DNA from: Pseudomonadota bacterium
GTDB lineage: Bacteria; Desulfobacterota; Syntrophorhabdia; Syntrophorhabdales; Syntrophorhabdaceae
Assembly: GCA_026388275.1 (NCBI GenBank)
Contig: JAPLKB010000038.1
Coordinates: 1-60,243 of the forward strand
Length of the DNA: 60,243 nt
Direction: 5' to 3'
Part shown: positions 20,009 to 60,243 of the stretch, in pieces
How the letters are laid out: each line of letters opens with the position of its first letter
Numbering within the stretch: the first letter of the stretch is position 1
Program-made: the position numbers and the translations under genes
Notes under the pieces: generated by a model
The model's database searches: none
What the model was told of the DNA's origin: nothing
What the model saw: the letters and a program-made list of their open reading frames with translations, nothing else

Positions 20009-21450
20009 TAGACCCTCTGGATTTCTGTACCCGGGAAATAATGCCTGAGGATTTCTTGTGCTGAAAAACCCTTCGTTGCCATAACAGCGGCACCGATCTG
20101 GCAGAGCCCTACGCCATGCCCCCAGCCGGCACCATGAAACACAAAGGTCTTAACCTCCTTGTGAGCGTCGTATTCCACAGTCACAATAAAAGCACTGCTG
20201 TATAGGTGACTCCTGGAAAGCCAGCGCCGTATTTCAAGTTCTTTTCCCACAACCATGCTTTTTTTCGAACCGATGATCTTCAGCCTAAATATCCGCCCTG
20301 AAGGACCACGGGATAGAGGTTGAATCTCCTTAAGCATCCCAAAATCAATACCTGATTTTTCCAGGAGGATCTCTTCCAATTCCTCCCGTTTATATTCAAT
20401 CTTCCAGCGGAAAAACGCCTTTGTTTCCTGGTCAAAGTCCGAAAGGATCCTTTTGAGAATATCTGCATCTTCTGTATTGCAATAGGCATCAGGTTCCGAA
20501 AGGATCCAGTGTGCCGCATCTTCCTCTGTTGTAATCGGGAAACAGGGTGCTGCTGCATCTGAAATACTTGACAGATAAGGGATATGTTTATCGTCCCAGG
20601 CTGTCTCGAATGCCTCTGTCATTCCCCCGCAGGCTTTTGAATACCGGGCATCACAAATCTCTCCCGCATAAGTAATTGCCTGTGCGCGTGTTTCCAGAAC
20701 GGATTTACCGGCATGAGTTGAAACAATCTTTGTAATACCCTGATAACGCTGGCAGTGGTCATCGGCACATACATCGTAGAGATCATGGTCTTCCTGTTCA
20801 TACCAGCGGATAACCTCAACCCCCGGCTTACCCGGCGGGCTAAGAGAAATATCCCGTGCCGGAAACTGTTCAGAAGAATCTACTTTCTCAGGGGCTTTTG
20901 CAAGCGCCTCTTTTGTTTTCTTTTTTCGATCCAGGGCTGCAATAAGCCAGCTTCTGGAAATAATGGCATGTGCCTTAAGAAATTCCATAGGGGCATTACT
21001 GCTCATCTCCGAGGAAACCACACTTCTAAGATAATCTTCCAGGAGGAGTTCATTTATGACCGCCATTGTTCCATCATTGCGGGACTTAAGAATCAGGTTC
21101 CCCTGAAAGGTTTGATTCTCTTTTCTCTCCCAGTGAAACTGTTTTCCGATAGTAACTTGAAAGAGTGTAAAAGTCGAATCTTTATCGGCTGTAAGCCTGA
21201 TTGTTGAGGAGCAGGCAATCTCACGGTTGTCCTCGCCGGCCAGCACAATGTTGCCGGACGTTACCTTTGCTGAAAACATGCCTGACACAGAACCGAATTC
21301 ATCCACGTAAAAAATGCCATTCAGACAACCGGCAACATCGGTCTGTCTGTCTATAATACCTACAGTCATTGTTGGTTCGTTCAATTTAATAATAGAGGGT
21401 TCGTGTATATCCGACACTGACAATGTATTTTTCGAAACCGTTCTACTCAA
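20005..21450 (-). CDS. SpoIID/LytB-domain protein (putative lytic transglycosylase)
   Basis: This is a 481-residue protein. The SpoIID core starts near residue 130 with [32 protein letters not shown]. The glutamate in SSEM is the catalytic acid of SpoIID transglycosylases. Later come KACGGMTE and the closing [15 protein letters not shown], all standard for the family. No signal peptide is seen, so export or anchoring is unclear. The start is TTG 21450, with AAGGA 7 bases upstream. First gene of a three-gene overlapping set with MurU- and AmgK-like partners, which suggests release and reuse of glycan fragments. Confidence 0.85.
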
Positions 21451-29419: not shown

Positions 29420-29743
29420 TTTTTTCAGCCATTTTTTTGAAATCTAAGAATAAAGTTCTTTTAATATTTATTTACCAATTGTCTTCTATTTGTCCGTTTA
29501 TATAAGGGCCTTTTCCACATCTGAACTGATAGCCAGGATGAATTAACTGGGCGCTGTTCTTTATCTCCCTCAGCCAGGCAAACAGGTTTAACCTTTTCAG
29601 GGATTTTCTTCCAAATACTCTCTCTTACCAGATATTCTTGTTTTATTCAGTTTATACAGATTTATCGTAATTATTATTCGTTTCTTCATTTGCAAAAGTC
29701 AAGATATTTCATAAAAGTTCTGTAAATATTTCGTTGAATTCCC

Positions 29744-29780
29744 TTGACAAAAAAGAATTTCAATTGATATGTAATGGAGC
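29744..29780 (+). promoter_or_regulatory. Promoter of the sdh-Rieske-cytochrome b operon
   Basis: TTGACA (29744-29749) and TATGTA (29768-29773) are 18 bases apart. The first codon of the operon is at 29781, about where transcription would start, so the first gene may be read from a leaderless mRNA. The rest of the 360-base gap before it (29420-29743) shows nothing I recognise. Confidence 0.5.
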
Positions 29781-30086
29781 ATGTTTATATGGCTTTTTCA
29801 CAGAATCAGCGGTGTATCTCTTATAATACTTTTCGGCGTAAAAATACTAACCGGCTTCTTTCTCTTCACAAAAGACAAAAAACCTGACTGGGCACTCAGT
29901 CTCCACCGTCAGCCTGTGATTGATGTATTAATACTCATACTTTTTACCTTTCACAGCATATACGGTTTAAGGACAATAGTTTTGGATTTTGGATACAAGA
30001 AGGAAAAACAGCTGTTCCGGTTATCTAATATTGCAGCAACAGTCATTTCGCTGGCCCTTATTTATCTATATAGTATAATCTCATAA
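29781..30086 (+). CDS. sdhC: Succinate dehydrogenase/fumarate reductase membrane anchor subunit
   Basis: This is a 101-residue protein with three membrane helices (about residues 8-28, 45-68 and 80-99). The opening FIWLFHRISGVSL is the heme- and quinone-site signature of SdhC/SdhD anchors, and HSIYGL in helix 2 holds a second candidate heme ligand. It is the only anchor in the operon. Either it works alone as a homodimer or the partner is encoded elsewhere. Its stop overlaps the sdhA start (TAATG). Confidence 0.8.
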   Translation: MFIWLFHRISGVSLIILFGVKILTGFFLFTKDKKPDWALSLHRQPVIDVLILILFTFHSIYGLRTIVLDFGYKKEKQLFRLSNIAATVISLALIYLYSIIS

Positions 30087-31792
30087 TGATGCTTTCTTAT
30101 GATGTCCTCATCATTGGTGGAGGTCTTGCCGGACTCCGCACAGCAGTGGGTCTCTGCGACATATATAATGTAGGGGTTTTGTCCAAGGTACACCCTGTCA
30201 GGTCACATTCTATCGCAGCACAGGGCGGCATCAACGCTGCCCTTGCAAATAATCCGGACGGTAAAGACGATACCTGGGAAAAACATGCCTTTGACACAAT
30301 AAAGGGTAGTGATTACCTTGCAGACCAAAAAGCTGTGGAAATCATGTGCAGAGAAGCAATAAAAGTCGTTTATGAAATGGAACACTGGGGTTGCCCCTTC
30401 AGCAGATTTTCTGACGGCTCAATTGCACAAAGACCTTTCGGTGGGGCAGGTTACCCTCGTACCTGTTATTCGGCAGACTTAACAGGTCATGTTCTGCTCA
30501 ATACACTCAACGAAAGAGCAACGGCTAAAGGGATAAAAGCCTATTCCGAATGGTTTGTCCTGGCTCTTGTTACAGACAACAATGTTTGCCACGGTGTTAT
30601 TGCTTTAGACCTTAAAAACGGTAAAATTGTGCCTATACTCGCTAAAACAATTCTGTTTGCTACAGGCGGTTACGGCAGGGTCTATCTCCATTCCACCAAT
30701 GCCCTGATTAACACTGGAAGCGGCATCGGCATTGCTTATAAGGCCGGTGTGCCCATAAAGGATATGGAATTTGTCCAGTTTCATCCTACTGCCCTTATCG
30801 GCACCAATATCCTTATAACAGAAGCAGCCAGGGGCGAAGGCGGCTACCTCATCAATAAAGATGGTGAGAGGTTTATGACACGTTATGTACCAAATGCCAT
30901 GGAGCTTGCGCCACGCGATATTGTTTCAAGAAGTATACAGACAGAGATAGACGAAGGCCGGGGGTTCGAGCACCCTTTGGGCAAATACATCAATCTTGAT
31001 TTGAGACACCTCGGTTCCAGGAAAATACTTGAAAAGCTGCCCGGCATCCGCAACATATGCATTGATTTTATAGGACTTGATCCGATACTTGAGCCGATCC
31101 CTATCATGCCCTGTCAACACTACTCCATGGGTGGCATAGACACAAACGAGAAATGCGAAACCAATATATCAGGATTTTACGCTGCCGGAGAGTGCGCCTG
31201 TGTAAGTGTACACGGTGCAAACAGGCTTGGTGGCAATTCGCTTCTCGATACAATAGTTTTCGGAAAGCTGGCATGTTCTGCCATTGATGAATATATCCGG
31301 GACAACAATATAAAACCTGATAGAAAGCTCCTCATAAGTAAAAATGAAGAGATGGAAGAGAAAATATACAAATTGATACATGGAGGAAATGAAAAACCAT
31401 ACAAGATCCTTTTTGATTTAAGCAAAACAATGAGTGACTGTGTTGGCATATTCAGAGAAAAAACAGGGCTCGAACAGGCGCTAAGTGATATTGAAAAAAT
31501 TAAGGAAAGATTCAGGAACATCCACGTTTCCTCCACAACAATGCATATGAATTATGAACTTCTTAATGCCATAGAGCTTGAATACATGATCGAAGTAGCC
31601 CACACAATTGCCGTGGCCGCCTATCTAAGGGAAGAAAGCAGGGGCGCCCATTTCAGGAAGGACTTCAGCACAAGGAATGATACTGACTGGCTTAAGCACA
31701 CTGTTGCAAGAATCGGCTCAAACGGAGAACCGGTAATTTCTTATAAGGACGTCGTAATTACAAACTATCCGCCCATGGAGAGGAAGTATTGA
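30086..31792 (+). CDS. sdhA: Succinate dehydrogenase/fumarate reductase flavoprotein subunit
   Basis: This is a 568-residue protein. The dinucleotide-binding motif is VLIIGGGLAGL. SHSIAAQGG contains His41, the covalent FAD attachment site. QFHPTAL, RGEGGYLINKDGERFM and HGANRLGGNSLLDTIVFG are the conserved substrate-site and FAD-contact motifs. It oxidises succinate, or reduces fumarate when run in reverse. The family alone does not settle the direction. It overlaps sdhC upstream and sdhB downstream. Confidence 0.93.
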   Translation: MMLSYDVLIIGGGLAGLRTAVGLCDIYNVGVLSKVHPVRSHSIAAQGGINAALANNPDGKDDTWEKHAFDTIKGSDYLADQKAVEIMCREAIKVVYEMEHWGCPFSRFSDGSIAQRPFGGAGYPRTCYSADLTGHVLLNTLNERATAKGIKAYSEWFVLALVTDNNVCHGVIALDLKNGKIVPILAKTILFATGGYGRVYLHSTNALINTGSGIGIAYKAGVPIKDMEFVQFHPTALIGTNILITEAARGEGGYLINKDGERFMTRYVPNAMELAPRDIVSRSIQTEIDEGRGFEHPLGKYINLDLRHLGSRKILEKLPGIRNICIDFIGLDPILEPIPIMPCQHYSMGGIDTNEKCETNISGFYAAGECACVSVHGANRLGGNSLLDTIVFGKLACSAIDEYIRDNNIKPDRKLLISKNEEMEEKIYKLIHGGNEKPYKILFDLSKTMSDCVGIFREKTGLEQALSDIEKIKERFRNIHVSSTTMHMNYELLNAIELEYMIEVAHTIAVAAYLREESRGAHFRKDFSTRNDTDWLKHTVARIGSNGEPVISYKDVVITNYPPMERKY

Positions 31793-52404: not shown

Positions 52405-53949
52405 ATGCCTGATAATAAACCATCGCGCGAGATAAAAGAACTCTCTTTGCTGTTTGAAATAAGTACAAAGCTGAGTGAGACTCTTGATCTTAAAGCTGTA
52501 CTGAAGCCAATTCTTCAGATGACGGCAATGCATATGGAAATTCCAAGGGGCACACTGACTATCTTGAACAGAAATAGGGGTGAGATCGTCGTTGAAGAGG
52601 CATATGGCCTCCGGCCCGAAGAACAAGCAAAGGGTAAATACCGCATGGGCGAGGGAATCACCGGTAAAGTGATTAACTCAGGACAGCCTGTCATTATCCC
52701 CAGGGTTTCTGATGAACCTTTGTTTCTTGATAAAACCGGGTCGAGAAGAAACCTTAACAAAAGCGATATTGCTTTTATCTGTGTACCCATAAAAATAGGC
52801 AGCGAGGTAATAGGCGCAATTTCTGCTGATCGCCAGTCTCAAGAGACAGTTTCTTTCGAAGAAGATGTTAAACTCTTAACCATTATTGCATCGAGCATCT
52901 CACAGGCAGTGCGCCTTCGGCAACTGGCACAGGAAGAACTGGAGAAGGTAAAGGAGGAGAACCAGCGTCTTCAGGATGCCTTAAAAAACAGATATAGGCC
53001 AAAAGCGATCGTCGGCAACTCTAAAGTTATGCAAGATGTCTACCAACTTATTGAAAAGGTAAGCAGGACAAACACGACAGTTCTTATTCTTGGCGAGAGC
53101 GGGGTTGGCAAGGAACGGGTAGCACACGCAATCCATTACGGTTCAGCACGTGCCAATAGACCATTTATAAAAATAAATTGCGCAGCTCTCCCGGAATCGC
53201 TTATTGAAAGCGAACTTTTCGGACATGAAAAAGGGGCATTTACCGGTGCTGCAACATCCCGCAGGGGACGTTTTGAGGTGGCTGACAAAGGAACTATTTT
53301 CCTTGATGAGATAGGGGATATTCCCCTGACTCTTCAGACAAAATTGCTGCGGGTGCTTCAGGAAAAGGAGTATGAGCGAATAGGCGGAGATACCACCATT
53401 AAAATAGATGTAAGGATTATTACTGCAACAAACAGAGACCTCGAAGCTCTTATGCAGCAAGGAAAATTCAGAGAAGATTTATTCTATCGGCTTAATGTTT
53501 TTCCAATTGTTGTCCCGCCCCTTCGGGAACACAAGACAGATATCATGCTTCTTGCCGATTATTTTATTGAAAAGTATAGCAAGGAGCATGATAAAAAAAT
53601 AGTAAGCATATCAACCTCTGCAACGGACATGCTTATGAATTATCACTGGCCGGGGAATGTGCGGGAACTCGAAAACTGCATAGAACGGGCAATTATTCTC
53701 TGCACTGACGGGGTTATCCAGAGCTATCATCTTCCGCCGAATCTTCAGAAAAGCGATATTGGTGAACTTGAAGGAACAAACGGTACCTTCAGGGAGATTA
53801 TTGTCAATATGGAACGGGAGATTATTCTTGATGAGCTGAAACGATCACGGGGAAATATGGCCAAAGCAGCACGGGTTCTTGGAATCACTGAGAGAATGAT
53901 CGGGATACGGGTGGCAAAATACGGGATAGATCCAACACAGTTTAAGTAG
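52405..53949 (+). CDS. NifA-like sigma-54-dependent activator (GAF, AAA+, HTH)
   Basis: This is a 514-residue protein. A GAF domain fills about residues 15-185 ([20 protein letters not shown]). The AAA+ domain has Walker A GESGVGKE near 230, the sigma-54-contacting loop GAFTGA near 276, and DEIGDIPL. The C-terminal Fis-type helix-turn-helix ([23 protein letters not shown]) binds enhancer DNA. The layout is that of NifA, with a GAF sensor that often responds to nitrogen status through PII. A sigma-54 promoter with upstream palindromes lies 1.3 kb downstream and is a likely target. Confidence 0.9.
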
Positions 53950-54267: not shown

Positions 54268-55035
54268 ATGTCAGATAAGAGATTCGTGATTTTGTCAGGG
54301 CCTTCATGTACAGGAAAAAGCCCCCTTGTTGCGGCAATGAATCAATTTCATCCGGATATAAAATACACAAAAATTCCTGTTATCAAAAGCAAGGAGTCCA
54401 GACCGCAAGGACCGAGACCCGAAGAAACGGGAATCTGGAATAACCCGGATTTCTTTCTAACAAAAAGAGATATTCTTCAGCTCAGCGATAATCTCCGCTA
54501 TTTTGTCGGCGACTGTCTTGGGTTGCCTCAGGCTGTCGATCTTCAAAAAATTAAGGAAAATGATTCGGGACTTTTCTTTGCGGATATTTATCATACCATC
54601 GGTGCGCAATTGCTAAAAAGTAAGTTTCTTTCTCATATGGAGATCGCGACCGTTTTCCTATCTCCAATCAGTCGTGAGGAAATTGAGGATTTGAAGGCAG
54701 CAAATATCGATCTGAAAAGCTATCTATATCAAATCATGCTTCACAAACAACTGGTCCGAGCCAGATACCACGGAAAAACAGTTGATGCCTGTTTCGTCAA
54801 GGATGCTCTTGGTAGAGCCGGAGACTCCTTCTCTGAACTTGCAAGCGCATGCAAGTATTCATACGTCATAATTAACCATGATGGGGAAGGCAGTCCTAAT
54901 TGGCATCGTCTCCCAAGCGGTGTATTTACAACAAGACCGGAGGGTGATGCAAGGCGGGCAGTTACCGCCCTGGTACAGATTCTTACAGACTCAATTACTG
55001 ATCAGATTGAAAATTGGGAGACCTTAAGGATTTGA
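54268..55035 (+). CDS. Guanylate-kinase-like P-loop protein
   Basis: This is a 255-residue protein with Walker A GPSCTGKSP at residues 11-19. A region KSKESRPQGPRPEETGIWNNPDFFLTKRDI follows, similar in layout to the GMP-binding part of guanylate kinase. The middle and C-terminal regions differ from true guanylate kinases, and the usual GKST threonine is proline. The substrate is therefore unknown. It lies between tRNA-Gln and the sigma-54 control region without overlap to either. Confidence 0.6.
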   Translation: MSDKRFVILSGPSCTGKSPLVAAMNQFHPDIKYTKIPVIKSKESRPQGPRPEETGIWNNPDFFLTKRDILQLSDNLRYFVGDCLGLPQAVDLQKIKENDSGLFFADIYHTIGAQLLKSKFLSHMEIATVFLSPISREEIEDLKAANIDLKSYLYQIMLHKQLVRARYHGKTVDACFVKDALGRAGDSFSELASACKYSYVIINHDGEGSPNWHRLPSGVFTTRPEGDARRAVTALVQILTDSITDQIENWETLRI

Positions 55036-55285: not shown

Positions 55286-55300
55286 TGGCACGCAGATTGC
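55286..55300 (+). promoter_or_regulatory. Sigma-54 (-24/-12) promoter of the porin-amtB-glnB operon
   Basis: TGGCACG (55286-55292), four bases, TTGC (55297-55300) followed by T match the RpoN consensus fully, with the GG and GC doublets correctly spaced. Transcription should begin near 55312, directly before the P2-type hairpin. Confidence 0.88.
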
Positions 55301-55313
55301 TTTAATAAAACAC

Positions 55314-55525: not shown

Positions 55526-56413
55526 ATGAAAGTTTTGAAATGTATGTTGTTATTTTTGGTTATTTCTTTGTTTGCTGTAACAGGTATTCTTTATGCAGAA
55601 GAAATAAAGGAAATAAAACCTCCGGATGCAAAGCCCCAGGAGAAAGTGGAAGAGGCAAAGGTAACCGGAAGTGGTTCAGTCGGTGTCTTCAATCAGTACA
55701 TATTCCGTGGGTATGAGATCGGCCAAAGCGGTCTCGTTATGCAGCCATCCCTTACTGCATCATACAAGGGATTTTCGGCAACCCTCTGGGGTAATGTGGA
55801 TACGAATCAACGCAGCACAAAAACTGCCGCCTTTAATGCTGAAACCCAGCAGTTTAAGAAGGGATGGAACGAAACAGACCTTACCCTCAGTTATACATAT
55901 GCCATCAATAAGCTCTCTTTAACCGGTGGTTTTATTTACTATGGCACAAAATATGCCGATGAAACAGAGGAGCTCTTTGCATCAGCTACTTATGATATCC
56001 TGACAAAACCTACATTTGCAATCTATCGGGATATTACTAACTATAAGGGAACATATTTTAACCTTTCCTTTTCACACTCACTCCCTGTCTACAAGGATAC
56101 CACTCTTGATCTGGGTGCATCATTCGGTTATTTCATCGGTGAGAGTGACTACTGGAAAACCTACGACCAGTCAACAGCAAGCTATACGGGAAGCAAGTAT
56201 AAAGGGCTGCATGACGGCATGGTAAAGGCAGCCCTCACTATACCGGTTACAAAGGCATTCTCGATTCAGCCTATGGTTCAATACTGGTTCCCTCTCTCGA
56301 GCGATGCAAAGAAAGAGTATGCGAATGCTACGGATATAAAAGATTCATACAACCCCAATGGACCTGTGAAAAGCAATTTTATCTATGGCATAGGTTTCAC
56401 TTACAGTTTCTGA
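55526..56413 (+). CDS. TorF-family putative porin
   Basis: This 295-residue exported protein has a signal peptide (LKCMLLFLVISLFAVTGILYA). The family pattern GSVGVFNQYIFRGYEIGQSG, then FSATLWGNVDTNQ, is followed by alternating beta strands ending in a terminal aromatic (FIYGIGFTYSF), as needed for outer-membrane insertion. Genes of this family are often found beside amtB, and a role in passage of small nitrogen compounds is plausible but unproven. ATG 55526 is fixed by AGGAGG 6 bases upstream. Confidence 0.8.
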   Translation: MKVLKCMLLFLVISLFAVTGILYAEEIKEIKPPDAKPQEKVEEAKVTGSGSVGVFNQYIFRGYEIGQSGLVMQPSLTASYKGFSATLWGNVDTNQRSTKTAAFNAETQQFKKGWNETDLTLSYTYAINKLSLTGGFIYYGTKYADETEELFASATYDILTKPTFAIYRDITNYKGTYFNLSFSHSLPVYKDTTLDLGASFGYFIGESDYWKTYDQSTASYTGSKYKGLHDGMVKAALTIPVTKAFSIQPMVQYWFPLSSDAKKEYANATDIKDSYNPNGPVKSNFIYGIGFTYSF

Positions 56414-56688: not shown

Positions 56689-58606
<1,918 letters not shown>

Positions 58607-58924: not shown

Positions 58925-60243
58925 ATGAGCGGAATCTTCGGGTTTATTGGTAAGGGTAATGCTTTTGTAGAAGTGAGGACCGGTCTTGAGAATCTCTCAC
59001 ACAGAGGGCAAGAAAGCTGGGGTATTGTTTCCGGTCAGCGAGACGGTTCTTTCTCGGAAGCGAGAGGCTTGGGATCAATTTTTCAGTCTTCCCTGCTGAC
59101 TCGATTCCATCCTGGCTCTGTGGCAGTTGGAGAGGTACGTTATTCCACTTCAGGGGAAGCAAGCGAAAGAAATAGCCAGCCCATAGTGGGAAGCTTAAAG
59201 AAAGAAAAGATCGCTCTCGTCCATAATGGTCATATTCCCCAATACAGGCAGTTGATGGAGGAACTAGGCGGTCTCTTCCAGACGGAGACAGACACTGAGG
59301 TGATCCTGCAAATTATTGCCCGAACAGAAGGTGTGGACTTTCTTGAAAAAACGGAGAAGACACTGAGCTTTCTGGGCCGACAGGCAGCTTTCAGCATCAT
59401 AATCCTCCATAACGGGAGTCTTATTGCCGCCCGGGACCCCTTCGGGTTCAGACCTCTTTCCATCGCGAGAAGAGGAGAGGAAGGTGATTACACATGGGCA
59501 GTAGCCTCTGAAACATGCGCTTTTCACAGCCAGTTCGAATGGATAGGAGACGTCGAACCCGGTCAAATGGTAGTAATGGATGGAAAGGATATAAGGACAA
59601 TTTCTTTTGCCTCCCCTGATCCTCACCCCTGTATCGTTGAATGTCTTGATTATGCTTCCCCGGCCAGCCAGGTCTTTTCGACAAGCAGTTACGAATTCAG
59701 GGAGAAAATAGGCACAAGGCTGGCGAAAACAGAAACTCAAAAAGCTGACATTATTGTTCCAATTCCCAGGGCTGCCATTCCCGCAGCCTTGGGTTTTCAT
59801 GATGTCACGGGGATCCCCTTTAAAGTAGCCATAAGCACTGTGGGCGAAATCGGCAGAATATTCATAATATCCAAAGAAAAAGACAGGTTTGACCAGGCCG
59901 AAAGGAAGTTTCAGGTCAACGAGGAACTGGTAAAAGGAAAAGAAGTTTTTCTGATTGATTCGCTTCTGGTACGGGGGTCAACGGCCATGGTCTTGATCCC
60001 TAAATTGCGTAAGGCAGGGGCAACGAAAATTCATTTGCGTCTAACTGCACCGCCACCACGCTTTCCCTGTTTTATGGGAATGGCAATGGCCAAGCCCGGT
60101 GAGTTGTTGGCAAGCAATCGGAGCGACGAGCAACTGAGAAAACTCATAGGCGTGGACACTTTCCGGTATTTAAAGACCGAGGAACTAAGGGAACTGGTGG
60201 GTACGCAGTTCTGTGACGCGTGCTTTACCGGAAAGTACCCTTT
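58925..60243 (+). CDS. PurF-like amidophosphoribosyltransferase paralogue with Ser in place of the catalytic Cys (partial)
   Basis: The frame is open from ATG 58925 (GGGAGG 4 bases upstream) to the window end, 439 codons. It aligns along PurF: Ntn-glutaminase landmarks ENLSHRGQESWG, GEVRYSTSGEA, ALVHNGHI, RDPFGFRPL; then IPAALGF, IGRIFI, and CDACFTGKYPF near the end. PurF enzymes start M-C-G-I; here it is MSGIFGFIG, so the nucleophile Cys is Ser. The PRPP loop reads LIDSLLVRGS instead of VDDSIVRGT, and GID becomes GMA. The four cysteines that bind 4Fe-4S in Bacillus-type PurF (HPC, FPC, CDAC) remain. It lies in the amtB/PII region. Confidence 0.82.
   Translation, partial: MSGIFGFIGKGNAFVEVRTGLENLSHRGQESWGIVSGQRDGSFSEARGLGSIFQSSLLTRFHPGSVAVGEVRYSTSGEASERNSQPIVGSLKKEKIALVHNGHIPQYRQLMEELGGLFQTETDTEVILQIIARTEGVDFLEKTEKTLSFLGRQAAFSIIILHNGSLIAARDPFGFRPLSIARRGEEGDYTWAVASETCAFHSQFEWIGDVEPGQMVVMDGKDIRTISFASPDPHPCIVECLDYASPASQVFSTSSYEFREKIGTRLAKTETQKADIIVPIPRAAIPAALGFHDVTGIPFKVAISTVGEIGRIFIISKEKDRFDQAERKFQVNEELVKGKEVFLIDSLLVRGSTAMVLIPKLRKAGATKIHLRLTAPPPRFPCFMGMAMAKPGELLASNRSDEQLRKLIGVDTFRYLKTEELRELVGTQFCDACFTGKYP

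Follow-up and report, generated by a model that had tools for sequence, protein, structure and literature searches.

A Ser-type PurF paralogue with a conserved glutamine pocket and an altered phosphoribosyl site in the order Syntrophorhabdales

The window, i.e. the whole stretch of 60,243 nucleotides that was analyzed, lies on contig C38 of the window genome (G000) and ends within a gene for a PurF-like protein in which Ser has replaced the catalytic N-terminal Cys. It is preceded, in this order, by a NifA-type activator gene, a sigma-54 box, a porin-like gene, amtB and glnB. The features are as follows.

52405–53949, + strand: NifA-type sigma-54 activator (GAF-AAA-HTH); TIGR01817, 533.7 bits (cut-off 528.85)
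55286–55301, + strand: perfect sigma-54 -24/-12 box, TGGCACGCAGATTGCT; box scan
55526–56413, + strand: porin-like outer-membrane protein, conserved neighbour in G000, G001, G011, G026 and G034
56689–58254, + strand: amtB ammonium transporter; PF00909, 373 bits
58268–58606, + strand: glnB-type PII gene, upstream of the paralogue; PF00543, 111 bits
58925–60243, + strand: Ser-type PurF paralogue, 439 of 442 amino acids; TIGR01134 (purF), 291 bits (cut-off 350)
58928–58930, + strand: codon AGC for Ser2 (E. coli Cys1; hereafter Ser1), AGC or AGT in the orthologues read
59138–59140, + strand: R72, E. coli Arg73, glutamine site, invariant; alignment, column table
59225–59230, + strand: N101-G102, E. 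coli Asn101-Gly102, oxyanion hole, invariant; alignment, column table
59291–59293, + strand: D123, E. coli Asp127, glutamine site, invariant; alignment, column table
59630–59632, + strand: C236, Fe-S ligand 1; alignment
59765–59776, + strand: PPi loop P-R/K-A-A, canonical P-D-S-G; alignment, column table
59843–59848, + strand: G307-E308 in place of the flexible-loop Arg-Tyr (NRYVGR to VGEIGR); alignment, column table
59957–59983, + strand: PRPP loop D-S/T-L-L-V-R-G-S-T, canonical DDSIVRGTT; alignment, column table
60068–60070, + strand: C382, Fe-S ligand 2; alignment
60077–60085, + strand: GMA in place of GID; alignment, column table
60212–60223, + strand: C430-D-A-C433, Fe-S ligands 3 and 4; alignment

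The paralogue starts at the ATG at 58925, with a GGGAGG ribosome-binding site just 5' of it, and its frame stays open to the window end, giving 439 codons (MSGIFGFIG...FCDACFTGKYP). Contig C36 of the same genome, which shares an exact 141-base end with C38 (window positions 60103–60243, C36 positions 21072–21212), supplies the last three codons (FPV) and the stop, bringing the protein to 442 amino acids. The G001 assembly also breaks in the Ser-type paralogue, its contig C78 beginning in that stretch; such shared contig ends perhaps reflect a strain-variation branch in the assembly. No Cys-Gly start is present in frame upstream of the ATG at 58925. Ser-type orthologues, 64–96% identical and all starting with MSG, were found in 17 of 60 related genomes. 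The N-terminal codon was read in 16 further orthologues, each of which has AGC or AGT for Ser, and the remaining, eighteenth one (G041) has the MSG start too; no reversion to Cys was seen in the orthologues read, though a single base change would yield Cys and synonymous sites have reached saturation between members. A wrong start was therefore rejected together with a sequencing error at 58928–58930, which the earlier note had named as a possible undoing of its reading: both the substitution of Ser for Cys in the window copy and the existence of MSG-type homologues in related genomes, as that note had envisaged, are now established.

The family thus counts 18 carriers, the window genome and the 17 orthologue-bearing genomes. 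Across 84,980 genomes, a pattern scan recovered 10 relatives, each a MAG that seems to belong to the family Syntrophorhabdaceae or the order Syntrophorhabdales, and 395 genomes drawn from the phylum held no further family member, the next best proteins (about 40% identity) being canonical PurF. Among viral contigs, phages and plasmids, no protein nearer than canonical PurF was found (best database matches 35–38%), which led us to reject a mobile or viral origin. The Ser-type window family appears to be confined to the order Syntrophorhabdales. A canonical purF of the MCG type, for which the earlier note had proposed to look in the window genome, is present on contig C64 (36% identical to the paralogue) and likewise in 16 of the 17 other carriers, G004 being the exception; the paralogue is hence not the sole purF of its genome. 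Pairwise dN/dS among the orthologues is 0.03–0.17, indicative of purifying selection and, where computable, about that of canonical PurF of the same genomes. These values and the intact orthologue frames dismiss a pseudogene and agree with the initial impression that the protein is not decaying at random.

In the phylogenetic tree, the window family forms one clade (100/100, with bootstrap values not fully settled) whose stem measures 3.13 changes per column and which stands apart from the clade of a second Ser-type paralogue described below; divergence within the clade is of the same order as that of canonical PurF. Proteins that change function usually show a burst of change and then constraint, and the long stem and later constraint would fit this pattern. 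As an exception to the similar divergence, the window copy lies 7–17 points nearer to its counterparts in several other genera than the canonical PurF of the window genome does, which suggests transfer of the paralogue within the order or replacement of purF. The window protein (291 bits) and two orthologues (288 and 296 bits) fall below the TIGR01134 equivalog cut-off of 350 bits, and the canonical PurF of the window genome scores 525 bits. The Ser-type family is a real, selected, lineage-restricted PurF paralogue, and it is very improbable that the window protein works as a glutamine PRPP amidotransferase.

In E. coli PurF, Cys1 is the nucleophile, Arg73 and Asp127 contact glutamine and Asn101/Gly102 form the oxyanion hole; the PRPP, PPi and flexible loops are likewise established functional elements of the enzyme. 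Alignment to B. subtilis PurF confirmed that the landmarks of the enzyme and its four cluster cysteines are kept over the 439 codons: C236, C382, C430 and C433 align with B. subtilis C236, C382, C437 and C440 and are invariant in 16 of 16 full-length orthologues. The same alignment corroborated the replacement of the second aspartate in the PRPP loop (DS for DD) and of GID by GMA. We further compared the window family with the 151 columns that are conserved in canonical PurF, of which 96 are unchanged and 55 differ, 33 of the latter uniformly. Apart from Ser1, the glutamine pocket is intact, with R73, T76, N101, G102 and D127 (E. coli numbers) invariant; directly after N101-G102 follows H103, a family-specific and invariant residue at a position where canonical PurF has Asn. 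Within the phosphoribosyl domain, the loop for the 5'-phosphate (RGST) and the equivalents of Arg332, Arg342 and Lys349 are retained, whereas replacements affect the PPi loop, the second Asp, Tyr329, Tyr258, Asp263 and Asp408. Across the family, the sequence of the PRPP loop is D345-S/T346-L/I-L-V-R-G-S-T, and R282, E308 and D242 are novel near-invariant residues in the site. YFARPDS has become DYASPAS in the window protein. Mutation of B. subtilis S283, K305, R307 or S347 relieves nucleotide inhibition (PMC4223553), and these feedback positions, which are among the 55 differing columns, are most often A, T, G and L in the window family, those of K305 and S347 being altered in most members, though not to a single residue.

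An AlphaFold2 model of the window protein reached a mean pLDDT of 88.8 and a pTM of 0.88 with 33 input sequences (the window protein, 10 orthologues and 22 canonical PurF proteins from viral contigs), compared with a pLDDT of 50 when 11 close orthologues alone were supplied. Both the Ntn amidotransferase and the phosphoribosyltransferase fold are retained in the model, which overlays B. subtilis PurF (1ao0) with a Z score of 46.8 and 1.8 Å over 412 residues, an agreement that is not independent of canonical PurF because the alignment leaned on it. Alignment, column table and fold model together support the view, already expressed in the earlier note, that catalytic motifs were altered while the fold and the Fe-S motifs were preserved.

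The window genome encodes a third, more distant PurF-like protein, 27% identical and also starting with MSG, on contig C11 (positions 29603–30784; L003, positions 1297–2682, - strand). Many Syntrophorhabdales encode a paralogue of this C11 type, as do G044 and G050, which represent two other families of the phylum. The C11 protein resembles the window family in the MSG start, the kept Fe-S cysteines and the normal purF alongside, but it belongs to a separate clade and shows the reverse pattern: the glutamine pocket is lost (Arg73–Gly78 deleted, Asn101 and Asp127 mostly lost), while the PRPP loop, (E/D)DSIVRGTQ (EDSIVRGTQ in the C11 protein itself), and the PPi loop, PDSG, are kept. By its residues, the C11 protein is a candidate ammonia-dependent PRPP amidotransferase. 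Since the glutamine residues are invariant in the window family and lost in the C11 paralogue (G102 apart), they are not kept by inertia alone; no other observation argues as strongly as this contrast for continued use of the glutamine pocket in the window family.

The genomic neighbourhood is conserved in part. Past the end of the paralogue, C36 carries amtB-glnK-amtB-glnK. G001 and G011 likewise have this porin gene upstream, and in both a gene for an amino-acid-permease-PII fusion plus a PII gene replace amtB and glnB; at L042 (7234–9129) and L052 (5403–7280), the permease and its C-terminal PII domain share one frame, followed by a free PII gene (PF13520 plus PF00543, as tested on L042). 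G026 and G034 have kept only the porin gene from the operon, the paralogue being directly 5' of it. The sigma-54 box before the porin gene is perfect in G000, G001, G011 and G034 and has one mismatch in G026, with 0.04 perfect boxes expected per 60 kb; no strict box was found within 350 bases upstream of any orthologue. The paralogue thus adjoins a sigma-54-promoted porin gene in 5 of 18 carriers, PII genes being adjacent in 3 of these. In the other 13, no nitrogen-gene link was seen in the available sequence, several contigs being short, and the genes beside the paralogue are unrelated and vary from genus to genus. The proposed clustering with amtB and PII genes consequently holds for the window genus and, with the permease-PII fusion standing in for amtB, for G011, not for the porin-only G026 and G034 or the other 13 carriers, so a nitrogen link of the paralogue is plausible but not obligatory.

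Several further observations concern these surroundings. The porin gene, whose product had no match in Pfam or NCBIfam, is common in the order Syntrophorhabdales and mostly single-copy. Between the activator and porin genes lies a gene for a guanylate-kinase-like protein (window positions 54268–55035; without a Pfam match, 75% identical in G001). The protein encoded at 52405–53949 exceeds the NifA cut-off beside a sigma-54-promoted porin-amtB-glnB cluster in a genome where nifH gave no match over cut-off. Among the carriers, nifH is full-length in G018 only, with partial matches in G043, a distribution that rejects nitrogen fixation as a general partner. PII copy number was 3.0 in carriers versus 1.3 (p 0.0006), an association that we set aside since carrier genomes are also larger (p 0.0002). 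In G003 only, a formyl-transferase (PurN-like) gene is divergent from the Ser-type paralogue (L050, 10574–11440).

Our favoured explanation, advanced tentatively and with a not quite even chance of being right, is that of a repurposed PurF: glutaminase-dead, probably glutamine-binding, with a rebuilt phosphoribosyl pocket, and acting as a regulatory protein of nitrogen or nucleotide status. We infer the loss of glutaminase activity from the Cys1-to-Ser mutant of E. coli PurF, which, as far as the account of Mei and Zalkin 1989 given in PMC3261824 goes, had no detectable glutamine activity and kept its ammonia activity. The Ser1 protein would no longer hydrolyse glutamine and would probably still bind it. 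With the 5'-phosphate loop kept and the PPi loop, second acidic, flexible-loop and feedback residues replaced, the phosphoribosyl pocket seems to have been rebuilt, and the protein therefore probably has another phosphorylated ligand or leaves PRPP unconverted. The [4Fe-4S] fold is predicted to be intact, and the protein would have no remaining part in phosphoribosylamine synthesis because the normal purF takes care of it. Its most likely role would be that of a ligand-binding regulator, which in some lineages sits in a sigma-54/PII nitrogen-uptake operon. The narrower proposal of a catalytically silent Fe-S protein that senses glutamine plus a phosphoribosyl-type ligand in sigma-54/PII nitrogen control, close to what the earlier note had in mind, is in our estimate unlikely.

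Other explanations deserve consideration. The earlier alternative of an ammonia-using PRPP amidotransferase is weakened, since it is the PRPP site that has been altered and the glutamine pocket that was kept; ammonia-dependent PRPP chemistry fits the C11 protein better. A wider version, in our judgement rather unlikely, sees the protein as an enzyme with a new acceptor: a phosphoribosyl- or phospho-sugar transferase, or an aminase, for which free ammonia or some other amine is the substrate and the glutamine domain only a scaffold or allosteric site. The invariant RGST loop and Arg332, Arg342 and Lys349 equivalents are in line with such an enzyme, the near-invariant R282, E308 and D242 suggest specific binding, and the AmtB neighbours could supply ammonia; however, exclusive use of ammonia should have let the glutamine pocket decay, as in the C11 protein, and the AmtB linkage is restricted to the window genus. 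We regard it as improbable that the paralogue joins PurF tetramers as a partner or inhibitor of the canonical enzyme, tuning purine synthesis to the glutamine level: the co-occurring canonical purF and the full fold of the model would permit this, but the two proteins are deeply diverged and the gene resides on another contig than purF.

Our repurposing explanation has points against it: the 13 carriers in which no nitrogen-gene link was seen, and the lack of a strict sigma-54 box in the 350 bases before the orthologues. The retained oxyanion hole also speaks against it in one respect, as a working Ser nucleophile would need the same residues. An active glutamine amidotransferase of this kind, comparable to Ser-type Ntn hydrolases and perhaps aided by His103, would account for the invariance of the oxyanion-hole and glutamine residues and of H103 beside them; yet we know of no natural Ser-type class-II amidotransferase. 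The E. coli C1S enzyme, in which glutamine use is abolished (PMC3261824), argues against it as well, and we consider it improbable too. Virtually negligible is the chance of a decaying duplicate or an assembly or sequencing artefact: a contig end interrupts the gene in G000 as well as in G001, but the orthologue frames are intact and under purifying selection, Ser is identical in every carrier genome and the overlap with C36 is exact.

With the [4Fe-4S] PurF of B. subtilis (1ao0, TIGR01134) the window family shares the two-domain full-length fold, the Fe-S cysteines, the glutamine-pocket residues and the 5'-phosphate loop, and it differs in having Ser for Cys1 and replaced PPi loop, second PRPP-loop Asp, flexible loop and feedback residues. 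By fold, the model also matches beta-lactam synthetase (1jgt; Z 15.8), a relative among the class-II amidotransferases that has lost glutamine hydrolysis in its N-terminal domain; that enzyme, in contrast, has an asparagine-synthetase-type C-terminal domain and neither Fe-S cluster nor phosphoribosyl domain. Our literature search for a Ser-type PurF family yielded nothing beyond PMC3261824, which describes Mlab_0150 of Methanocorpusculum labreanum, a duplicated PurF whose active-site Cys has become Ser. The claim that no such family has been described stands as regards a family, not as regards the substitution itself. As described there, Mlab_0150 is an archaeal, recent duplicate nearest its own purF, whereas the window family is bacterial and forms a deeply diverged clade.

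For Ser-type genes, the homology-based annotation 'amidophosphoribosyltransferase' is wrong or unsafe. The two Ser-type paralogues, which have lost opposite active sites, would represent a natural experiment separating the glutaminase and phosphoribosyl functions of PurF. If our explanation is true, a textbook purine enzyme became a non-hydrolysing glutamine-binding protein that has been retained over long evolutionary time.
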